Source: Apostichopus japonicus (lineage: Eukaryota; Echinodermata; Holothuroidea; Aspidochirotida; Stichopodidae). Taken from it: DNA of 64,000 nucleotides. The notes under the pieces were generated by a model. The model searched no databases. It saw nothing but the letters and a program-made list of their open reading frames with translations, and was not told the origin of the DNA. Shown piece after piece: positions 1-6,000 of this stretch. The stretch is taken from positions 19,213,501 through 19,277,500 of the forward strand of contig NC_092569.1 of assembly GCF_037975245.1 (NCBI RefSeq). Direction: 5' to 3'. A program made the position numbers and the translations under genes. Numbering within the stretch: position 1 is the stretch's first letter; the number at the start of each line of letters is the position of its first letter.

Positions 1-3000
1 GCGCAATATGCACAGCCGCTTCCGACAGGGAAATAATCACAATAATATTCACTACTTGGGCAATTAGACCGGCAATAAGAATAAGTCGAAAGACAGTGAT
101 AATAATAACCGAACCACCAGGCTCCTCGATGTTTCTCAGCGCAGTCAAAATCACTCCATGCGTCATTGTCTTCGCCACGTGTGCTGAATTGTTTTTTGTT
201 GCTAAACCACATAGAATTATGACCTACGGATTCGAGTAAGAAAAGTTAGAAAAGAAACTTCTAAGGTTAAGTCACGCCATCTTGTGCGTAATTTATATCA
301 CTAATTGTTAATATTAGTGCTTTCCTGGTAACCTGTTATTTCTTAAAACGATACAAAATGTTGTCATTTCAGCCTATTTTTTCTGAAGGGTGATACCACA
401 TCAGTTTATTATAATACGATGTAACAGAGAAGAAAAAAAAACACCTTTAATGTGTGTTGTCAAAGTCTTGTAAGACCTTCAGCATACAGGTTTGTCTATG
501 TGTATTTAGTAAATTCCTCAATTTTGTCCCCCGCAAACATTTTTTTATTACAAATATTACCGATAACTAGAAACAAATATCATTGTATTTGACACTCATT
601 AGCAATCACTGTATTGTTCTAAATTTCCAAAACTTTATTCAGAAATGGAAACGGCATATTGGGAATTTAGCTGTTTTGCTTGTTGTTTTCATCTGTTCAT
701 TATTTTTGTAGTTTTTTCATCTTTCAGCGTTTACTGCCAGATGAATTTTTTACAATAATAGTTATTTATATTTTTCCTTAACTATCTAACGGAAAAATGA
801 TTATATAAATTCGGTGTCAATTTTTAAAACAAGTTATTCATACAGAAGCGATGAATCTACCTAGAACGTTTCAAAGCTTCATTCCATCAATATGTGTGCA
901 GCAAGCTATGAAACTTATTCTTGTCTACGTCGCTGTTTTCCTGTTGATCATTTTGCCAAACACGGCAGTCTGAGTTGTAGTTTATAACCTTCTTGTTACG
1001 TTATCGGCTATTTATGTTTATGTTTGGTTTATATTATGCTTACTAATGTGTTAACAAATAACATACTTGTATTATGCATGTTTGGTAATGGTGTCATCAG
1101 TACGTCATCATCAAATTGTGTCTTTTTTTCCACACAAACCATGCAGTTGAAAATTAGAGAGTCAACAGCCTTCAATTTGTTGGCATTGTTAGTTGACTGA
1201 ATACAAAAGACTGTTTAATGATTTAAATATGCCACTACGTGGCTACATTAAGGCACTTTCTTTGTCAAAAATGTATACAAAAAATGTTTTCTAAGAAATT
1301 CTTAACATATATATATATATATATATATATATATATATATATATATATATATATATACATATATACATATATATATATATATATATATATATATATATAT
1401 ATATATATATATATATATATATATATATATATATATATATACTTTGTGAAGAAGGTAAGAAATAAATGCCCAGTTTAGCGTATTCAATAGCCTTTCATGA
1501 TTTGTAGTTATCGCAAAACAAACGGAAAGAGGATAAAATGTGTAAATATGAATATAAGGATATTAAATATATTTCAGGTTCAATATTAAATTCCATTGAA
1601 AGTGACTATAGATGCTAAGGAGACAAGTGAAGGATTTTTGCACACATGGGTGTATTTAGCTTCCTAGCTATTACTTTCAATTACCATGTTTCGTGAGTGA
1701 TTTGCATTAATCTTATAATAACTACTGAAATACTAACCTGTATCACCACTATATGATCCAATTGAGAGTCGATATTTGTCCGCATCATCACTTATGCTAA
1801 AGGAGGAATAGAGGGCGTAATATGATGAACTTCTTGAATCAGTGAGGTCTATCCTGAGACTGTATTCTTTTTGGTTGGTAATTGCGTGTATGTAATCATT
1901 ACCAAGCCAATGATCACCGATAGGATTTTCAAATCCGTTCTTGTATTCAGCCCAGGTACGATAGAAATCAACAGCGGCGCTTGATCGTCGCTGAATGACC
2001 TATAAGTATAAAGAGAAATTTACATGTAACAATAGTAAATGAGAAATATGTAATGTGTCTTCCACACTTTTGCAGAACAAATGAATTCAGATACAAGACA
2101 CTGAACTGTATTCAATATACTTCTACAACTCACCGTCCATCCTCCTCCGTTACTTTCCATCCGACAGAAAACCTGAATGCCGTTAGGCGAACCATCAGGG
2201 TAAATGGTGTAAACTCCATCTGTACTACCATCAACGTAAAGCTCTTGGCAATCCCTTGGGACAACCTCGCGGGTACACGTAACACCGTCTCCTTCGTAGC
2301 CATCTATGCAGTAACATCTACGAACACCATCTCTGACATCACAAGTCGCGTGATCACTACATTGGTAACTATCTTCTACCATGAGTTGGTTATTGCTACA
2401 ATTTGATCTTCTTGTACAGGCTGAATTGACGTAAGACTCGCCGTTCTAAATTTAATGGGAAATATATTTTTTTAAATGTCATGCAAAATGTATTAAGTTA
2501 TTCTTAATTCACCATTGAGACTCACCAGACTACCGGACATATTCACCATAAAAATATTTATGATTAAAGTATGAATAAAAGGGACACGTGAATTTTAATT
2601 CTGTTTCCGGTAAAAGAAATTGTTTGAAGAAACGTTAAAAACACAAATGACATAAATTATGCTAATTCATTCAGATATCTTGTGCCAGTAATGTGATTAA
2701 GTAACTTTCACTTGTGCATTACGTTAAATTGGCTATCGTAAAATGATTTGAAAATAAAGGAACTTGCAATGAAATTTAATGTTAACATACATTTTTTTTT
2801 ATTAAAAATGTCAATCAAAAAATTCGGCAGTTGTAATTTCTGCTATTCATTATGAAAGTGGGTATCAATTCTGTATTGTCGAAAATTAATCACAAAACTT
2901 CCATTTTTTTTAACTCAATGACTTTATTCAATACAGATATGAATAAAGAAAGAAAGTGGAAAAAACTACTGAAAATACTGACTATTAATACAGTCCCTTT

Positions 3001-6000
3001 GTCAGCAACGAAACAGCTGCATTGGTTCTGAGGAATGCAATTCTCATCCTGAATCATGTAATCACCAACACAAACACATTTCTCTAGTTCTGTGCGAGAG
3101 GTTGAAGAGATGCATGCGTCAGGGTCATCGCACCTCCTCTCACATGTCTCGTTGGAGAATGTCTTATTCGTTGGACACCATTCCAATTGAGATTCTAGGA
3201 AGGAAGATTGTAAATCATGTAAGTAGAAGATCCACTAGTGAAGTGATGCATTCTACTAAACTAATGTGTTAAATTAAAGTCAATCTTGAAGCTATTGCCC
3301 TCACCGGATACTACAGAGAGGAACATCGTAAAGAATTCAAAAAACACTGATTTGTAATGTTCTGAGATGACTTGGTAGACTAATTCATTTTTTAACAATA
3401 TGGATGCCATAGAGTACAAATGTAGTTTGGGATCATTTTTACAACCACAAAATGTGAAGAGGAAAGTCCGGGTGGACTTAGTCGCCTTTGTATAAAAAAC
3501 AACCAATTTCTGATGTCGTCAATCATAATGACTCCCGATACACAAAGCGTAAGTTAGCACCCCCACCACCCCACCAAAATAAACAGAATGGAAAAACGGT
3601 GAGTAACTAATATTTCATTATAGGGAATTATATTTGCATATGTGTAAGTTGATTGTTACTATTAATGTTACCAATCTCCTATCTTAAGTCACACCATTGC
3701 TAAGTTTAAATTGACTTACCTGCTGTTCCTCCATAAGTTCCTACACTTGAGAGTTGATATTGCCCCCATTCATCTGAGATACGAAATTGGTCATATGTAA
3801 CGTAATAAGACTGTCCTGCAGCATTCTCAAACTCAAATCTCAGTTGGTAATTTTTTTGGTTTGTAAGAAAAGCTAATTTCTCATTTCCAATCCAAAACTC
3901 ACTGCCAAGAAAACCAAAGCCGTTTTTGAAGTCTTGCCAATTCCTATTAAAATTAACAGAATCCAGTCGTCGCCGCTGTAACACCTGCAGTAGATATCGT
4001 ACAGGAATGGAAAGTTAATATTTCAAAATTGTCTCGTCGGTTATAATCAACCACAAAAATGTCTCATGAAAATGACCGCTTTTTAAGACAAATTGCAATG
4101 TTTTTGAAGTTATTACTTTATTTTATTTTGTTGACAAATTCAGTGTTCAGTTTTCATCTCTTTAAATTGATTGTAGCGTCATACACTTTATTTTTGTAAC
4201 TAAGAATCCAACAAATGTGCACGAGTAAGTTTCTGATCCGTGTAATACATGAATGTCTTGATAAATGCCAAATAAACCATTGCTGTTTAATACATGTTTC
4301 TGTCAGGCTAACCTGAAGTAAACATTATTTAACGTGTTTAGAACAAAAGTTATTGATAATAAACTACAAAACAGATGATTCGATGACATTCCATGTAAAG
4401 TGCAACATTAAAAACAGCAAGGCTTACCGTCCATCCACCATTATTGAATTCATTATCACAGTAAACTTCAAACGGTTCTGGGTATCCGTCTGGTTTGATG
4501 AGGTACACGCCAGATGTATTATGGGTAGAGGTGCAGGCATTCAATACTTCCTTGCAATCTCTTGGATATTCAGGTTGTTGAAAGACAAAGTATGAGGAAC
4601 CTGTATAAAAATTAATAGCAGAGGTCATTTTTGATGTTATACAATTACACACAAAAATGCTTCGAATGATTTTTCTTTAAATTGTAATAAATTGCATTCC
4701 ACGTTGTTCGAAGAATGTGAATATTTCAGTCTGCAATATCGATGTCGAATAAGATAAATTTGTTTATCCTGCTGTGTTTTTTAATACGTCTCAATTATGA
4801 TAATAAAGCAGTCGATCAATGAAAGAAACTTAGGCAATCATGTATGATGCGAAAAGTAAAAAAGAATAAAGTTTAAAGGAAAGCAAAAGTAAAGAACAAA
4901 GTTAACTTCCAAGCGACCACAATGAACACTTGACATCACACAAAATGTATTGACTAAAGTAAGCGACATAACTACATAAAACGTTTAGACATACTTGATT
5001 GCAGTGAGAACCAGTGGTTTAGGATATTATAACATGGTTCATGAATACTAACAAAGACTGGAAATAAAGTCTTCATTTTTGGAACCATTTTTAGTCATTT
5101 GTCAGTACTATTAGTTTAGGGTAACCGTTTTTAAAATGTTAAGACTTAAGTATTATAAAGTATAACGACTTACTTGATGATTGTTCCCCAACGTTTGCGA
5201 CCACCTGTATTTGAAATGAAATGAATGTTACTCGAATTAATATGACAATTATTTACCTACATCGATTGACATTAAACATGAATTATATTGGTTTTTATAC
5301 AAACTGAGTTACAAAATGATAGAAACTTGGTTTGATAGGACAACATTCTTTCCGTTCCTTTCCTTTGTTTATATTAGAAGTTAAATTTAAGCTTACTTCC
5401 ACAAGTCACGAAATACCGTCTAATAACATATACTTAACCTTTACTGCAGTTCAGCTCTTTCGTTTCATTTTACATGTATTAATATACATGAAACAGGGGT
5501 TACTTCCAATCAGCTAATATCATAGTTTATCATGCAATCAGAAACAATAATTTGATTCCATGTTGAGATTTCAGGAAACAAACTTTGACCTGCAAACCTT
5601 TACAGGAAGACTGAATCACTTTGATGAATGATTGGCAACTAACTACCAGAACAAAGACCAGACAAAACGTAAACAACTTTCTTTTCTTTGTTCGTGTCAT
5701 ACATGTTGGATATCTCTCCTCACAGTATACGATGTGTATTTTACTTTGGCTATAGGGAGGAACTTTGAAATATTACAGATGTATATACAGCTATAAATGA
5801 TTTTCTTTGGACTTATAGTGCAGTACATCACATTTTTCAAAGAACATGGAAGGAAACCCTCAGCTGTTACCATTTTACACTTAAGGTAAGATATTACATT
5901 CAAAGTGTTTACTAAAATTTAAGAAAGATCAATAACATACGGAACTCCGACTATAGCTTGCAGCAAAGACCATATTTTCTCTGGTGTACAATGTTTGTTT

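Follow-up and report, generated by a model that had tools for sequence, protein, structure and literature searches.

A fibrinogen-related domain without its third exon, predicted to be spliced to a TIL module, in a large gene family of Apostichopus japonicus

Background

Ligand binding by fibrinogen-related domains (FReDs) is served by the segments that carry the DND site and the CAxxxxGAWW motif. Intelectins and CNTNAP/Caspr are described as keeping only the N-terminal part of the domain, as a piece that is shorter than the one described in the present work and that is joined to other partner domains.

Large families have also been built on this domain. The FREPs of molluscs combine IgSF with a FReD, are large and diversified, and have been proposed to act in immune recognition, with a diversity that is partly somatic (PMC7588048 and PMC13428168). 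An expansion of FREPs has been reported in Apostichopus japonicus itself, where 21 tandem FREPs on Scaffold75 are up-regulated in visceral regeneration (PMC5638244). These are expanded, clustered fibrinogen-related genes, like the family analyzed here, but the passages considered give no domain layout, and the main text of that report uses the terms EGF and TIL 0 times. The accessible portions of PMC13228809, PMC11310086, PMC13428168 and PMC2702171 contain no description of a truncated FReD joined to TIL, and no account of a FReD(ab)-TIL-EGF-FReD layout was found in the accessible text of the open-licence literature.

The gene described here lies on the minus strand of a 64,000-nucleotide stretch of the A. 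japonicus genome (the window, C9:19213501-19277500). Whereas the partner of the FReD in mollusc FREPs is IgSF, the present family places a truncated FReD, TIL, TILa and EGF before a complete FReD, and the variety observed in it is germline and lies within that second FReD. The IgSF plus FReD combination of mollusc-type FREPs was not found in the 571-aa protein model, in which a Pfam scan at E<=0.01 detected no Ig family.

Results

Gene model and domain content

Eight exons can be joined on the minus strand into an open protein of 571 amino acids with 32 cysteines, in which every intron is GT-AG and the domain order is FReD1(ab)-TIL-TILa-EGF-FReD2(abc). Exon 1 (5590..5700) supplies the start codon and, judged by eye, a signal-peptide-like leader, in an open frame that ends at a phase 0 GT donor; an earlier candidate end after AAG, which gives GGRKRW, was rejected because the frame of FReD1a requires a phase-0 exit. 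The signal-peptide-like start suggests that the protein is secreted. All 11 matches to the leader in the genome lie 887-1337 bp upstream of a FReD1a match. Exon 2 (5174..5204) is a putative mini exon of 31 nt between AG and GT sites, and is the sole reading that is in frame with FReD1a; its splice sites are preserved in two paralogs (L074 and L075).

The two FReD exons reported in the original prediction, together with their phases and the TIL exon, are in place. Exon 3 (4428..4600; Pfam and tblastn) encodes FReD1a, the A subdomain, which has a third, additional cysteine, and exon 4 (3720..3984; Pfam, splice-site reading and dN/dS) encodes FReD1b, the B subdomain, and ends in the phase-1 donor CAG^GTAAGT. 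The intron that follows (3195..3719) stands where a third FReD exon would be expected. Exon 5 (2983..3194), entered in phase 1 and left in phase 0, carries a TIL-like domain of eight cysteines and the start of TILa. Exon 6 (2134..2445, phase 0 at both ends) carries the remainder of TILa, an EGF domain and FReD2a, as assigned with Pfam. FReD2b is encoded by exon 7 (1738..1999), which has a phase-1 donor, and FReD2c, with the DND site, the CAxxxxGAWW motif and a Tyr/Cys-rich variable loop, by exon 8, which is about 350 nt long, occupies 1..223 in the window and runs 126 nt beyond its left edge to the stop. The intron that separates FReD2b from FReD2c contains a long (AT)n tract (1297-1440).

The two exons of FReD1 match Fibrinogen_C (PF00147) at positions 2-132 of 221 (133 bits, E=1.8e-38, cut-off 22). 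Because the match stops at 132, the C-terminal two fifths of FReD1 are absent, and the domain is a partial FReD in which the P subdomain with the DND site and CAxxxxGAWW is missing before TIL. FReD2 is a complete Fibrinogen_C domain (2-220 of 221) once its last exon is read beyond the window edge, and covers positions 2-177 inside the window alone; FReD1 and FReD2 share about 42% identity across the b exon.

The modules between the two FReDs match their families with scores that range from below to above the Pfam cut-offs. TIL (PF01826) scores 16.5 bits in this copy (E=0.0097), under the cut-off of 24.5, and is not listed in the Pfam scan of this copy's whole protein; it scores 24.1 and 21.7 bits in two other paralogs, and 28.2 and 30.2 bits, over the cut-off, in the diverged paralogs L058 and L060. 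The TIL domain has ten cysteines. Of the 39 loci, 37 carry nine cysteines in the TIL exon and two carry 11; one cysteine per exon was assigned by eye to TILa, so that TIL proper has eight or ten. The TILa match (PF12714) bridges the TIL exon and the EGF exon, with scores under the cut-off of 27: 24.7 bits for a typed exon join (E=2.6e-05) and 21.2 in the final model. A donor after 2992, also in frame, was rejected for the TIL exon because the TILa match is weaker without the TVLI residues that this donor removes (20.2 bits, against the 24.7 of the typed join). The EGF domain matches EGF_3 (PF12947) at 31.0 bits in the final model, over the cut-off of 28.5, and with E=8e-08 in a separate scan.

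Absence of a third FReD exon before TIL

The C-terminal exon of FReD1 had been described as missing from 3719-3195, and this was borne out by each of the methods applied: tblastn with FReD2c gave no match between these positions, and neither of two third-exon HMMs detected such an exon. The first HMM combined L001 with 11 of the family's third exons and left out the gene under study, and the second was derived from 14 such exons in other FReD genes; each was applied, in three frames, to the FReD1b-TIL introns of 39 loci (the gene under study plus 38 paralogs; 24,444 bp). No third exon was found in the 39 introns by the first model, with a top score of 4.6 bits (E=0.34) against 96.0 bits (E=1.3e-29) for its control, or by the second, with a top score of 0.5 bits against 34.0-81.6 bits for five controls out of five. 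With the positive controls recovered, a hidden third exon is rejected for these 39 introns. The 525-bp FReD1b-TIL intron of this gene contains neither AATAAA nor ATTAAA. The proposal that a phase-1 junction would permit loss of the third exon without a frameshift fits the data, as phase 1 is the entry phase of ordinary FReD third exons in this genome and of the TIL exon alike.

Recurrence of the junction across the family

One assembly of 671,581,487 bases in 35 contigs was searched. There are at least 150 matches to the TIL exon in this genome, 149 of those listed being on C9, and at least 150 matches to FReD1a. FReD1a lies within 4 kb upstream on the same strand at 127 of the 149 C9 TIL matches listed (929-2413 bp, median 1652). 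The 200 shifted controls averaged 4.6 such pairs and never gave more than 26, and the adjacency of the two exons therefore exceeds chance. The 22 unpaired TIL matches include two, at C9:4255011 and C9:6327607, that do have FReD1a (L052 and L054), and some unpaired matches have a FReD1a beyond the FReD1a matches listed.

At all 39 loci that were read, FReD1b precedes TIL (30/30 around the best TIL matches and 9/9 around distant ones), including a locus (L058) on another contig or chromosome at which TIL is merely 35% identical. A phase-1 GT donor after FReD1b is present at 39/39 loci, the site given for L059 looking mispicked, and an in-phase AG acceptor at TIL is likewise present at 39/39, the site given for L030 being an internal AG. 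This in-phase recurrence, together with the purifying selection on FReD1b described below, supports the suggestion of the original prediction that a truncated FReD fused to TIL-EGF-FReD is a real architecture. The prediction had also considered that two genes might have been collapsed into one, with a short FReD gene that stops after 3720 followed by a separate TIL-EGF-FReD gene. The FReD1b-TIL junction of this gene is predicted from genomic sequence, which leaves some room for two genes; but the order and spacing recur at the 127 paired TIL matches, the splice sites are strong and matched in phase, TILa spans two exons, the leader exon is shared, the intron holds no poly(A) signal, and in two paralogs (L058 and L031) the FReD1b-TIL intron is as short as 185-232 bp. 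Two separate genes are thus very improbable.

One locus (L057:575-3858, C9:29.74 Mb) carries two successive FReD(ab)-TIL junctions, the second also without a third exon; the unit can therefore repeat. TIL matches at C9:29757932 and 29760376 are spaced as in this double junction. The repeated unit also bears on an alternative in which splicing would join FReD1b directly to FReD2c, skipping TIL, EGF and FReD2ab, so that a single locus would yield a short protein with one FReD as well as the long one. FReD1b has a phase-1 donor, as does FReD2b, and the skipped form is open over 309 aa and matches Fibrinogen_C at positions 2-220 with 167.1 bits. The case for skipping consists of this fit of phase, however, while FReD2c already has a partner in FReD2b, and the second truncated FReD of L057 is again followed by TIL rather than by a third exon; such alternative splicing is considered unlikely.

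Selection on FReD1 and on the other exons

FReD1b is kept by purifying selection. Among 14 representatives, which also served for the tree below and leave out 25 of the 39 loci, the dN/dS of FReD1b has a median of 0.124 and a maximum of 0.446 (dS was finite in 36 of 91 pairs). The ratio is 0.18 among ten close copies and 0.14 among seventeen others, groups from which L029 (which has a stop) and L031, in the first, and L048, in the second, are excluded. The p-distance among 11 close copies is 0.040 in FReD1b against 0.119 in the intron that follows, the exon being lower in 55/55 pairs. When nine genes are compared exon by exon, pN/pS is 0.29 for FReD1a, 0.19 for FReD1b, 0.30 for TIL, 0.50 for TILa-EGF-FReD2a, 0.23 for FReD2b and 0.40 for FReD2c.

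These values bear on a further reading put forward with the original prediction, that of a decaying or pseudogenised copy that chanced to lose an exon. Stops do occur in some members, namely in the FReD1b exon of L029 (1/39), in the loops of L086 and L097 (2/44 parsed third exons) and in three of the 11 leader matches, but this copy is open over 571 codons and the dN/dS of FReD1b is about 0.12-0.18 across the family, so that decay is contradicted for the family and deserves very little credence as an account of the missing exon.

Origin of FReD1 and its extra cysteine

In a tree of b exons with 38 rows, the 14 FReD1b rows form one clade (support 99/94), and the row nearest to it is L008 (86/78, not starred). 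The FReD2b rows form a separate group (82/88), and because they group elsewhere, FReD1 did not arise by recent copying of FReD2. Twenty rows are labelled as full FReDs, a label that also covers L005, L007, L009, L017 and L020, near which no third exon was seen.

Ordinary FReD genes with three exons, such as L008/L076 and L012 in this genome, resemble the family in the layout of the a and b exons, but have a third exon downstream, which FReD1 lacks; in L008/L076 the distance to this exon is about 2.0 kb, and the exon contains a stop. The L008 gene, at C9:16.70 Mb, shares with FReD1 the SSYF-Q leader of FReD1a and the extra cysteine, at 65% identity. The region that holds L008 and L076 (C9:16.17-16.72 Mb) contains FReD b-exon matches clustered on one strand, one every 12-15 kb or so. 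FReD1a has three cysteines in 23/23 complete copies read, and FReD1b has none in 38/39 loci. Since the extra cysteine is also present in L008, apparently a three-exon FReD, it did not arise with the truncation; as an odd cysteine, it could join chains or bind TIL.

Variable loop of FReD2

The insert of FReD2c between GAWW and HLNG (window 1-223 and L061-L112) is 27-46 residues long and is distinct in 43 of 44 copies, these being the ones parsed from 52 third exons that are best or near-best matches to that of this gene rather than a random draw; the other eight were not parsed by the pattern. A main-family set of 40 copies, which drops ten of the 52 (unparsed or with a stop) as well as L115 and L116 (another subfamily), has 39 distinct loops with 24% Tyr and 14% Cys. 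In this set the mean entropy is 1.27 in the loop against 0.50 and 0.56 in the flanks, and pN/pS is 0.48 against 0.20 and 0.36. Since the loop value is not above 1, there is no support for positive selection on it. The nine genes compared exon by exon have a raised pS in the loop region too, and gene conversion or repeat slippage could therefore drive the variety of the loop.

Other features of the window

Exons that match Pfam UDPGT lie at 20509-21522, 29121-29480 and 31277-32212 on the minus strand, which suggests at least two UDP-glucuronosyltransferase (UGT) genes. An EIF3I-like exon at 46121-46453, also on the minus strand, scores 117.2 bits, short of the 200 bits set as cut-off for the whole protein. 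Neither Rfam nor tRNA scanning of the 64-kb window gave a match.

Discussion

The gene is very probably a member of a very large tandem family of secreted FReD proteins in which the third exon of FReD1 was lost ancestrally and TIL stands at its splice position. In the sequence of events proposed here, the first FReD of a common ancestor would have permanently lost its third exon, which encodes the P subdomain, a TIL exon entered in that same phase would have taken over the vacated splice position, and the family would then have multiplied on one chromosome.

Ligand binding by FReD1 is unlikely, as this domain has lost the stretches with the DND site and CAxxxxGAWW. FReD1(ab) may instead form a ligand-blind N-terminal scaffold, perhaps one that links chains through the conserved extra cysteine, with TIL-TILa-EGF as a putative stalk. 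Several paralogs (L033 and L036-L046) have at least two TILa-EGF matches, and the length of the stalk may therefore differ between members. The recognition head of a germline-encoded repertoire would be FReD2, whose variable Tyr/Cys-rich loop lies beside the pocket. As judged from sequence, a conserved scaffold of P-less FReD and TIL/EGF stalk that carries a variable FReD2 head is the likeliest role, and a function of the family in immune recognition may be envisaged. A more far-reaching version, put forward tentatively and with somewhat less than even confidence, is that echinoderms possess a germline repertoire on a new FReD chassis: more than 100 tandem genes in which a conserved, ligand-blind half FReD and a TIL/EGF stalk would display a complete FReD with a Tyr/Cys-rich loop on the pocket side that is nearly always gene-specific, comparable to the long, Cys-stabilised loops of antibodies.

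The family indicates that a FReD can drop its ligand-binding third, take in a TIL exon of the same phase and persist under selection in a huge family, and because it is kept under selection there, half a FReD appears to have a job of its own. The FREP expansion of A. japonicus, reported in the context of regeneration, would also gain a concrete domain architecture from it, and the variable loop of FReD2 is a candidate recognition site in an animal without adaptive immunity of the lymphocyte type.
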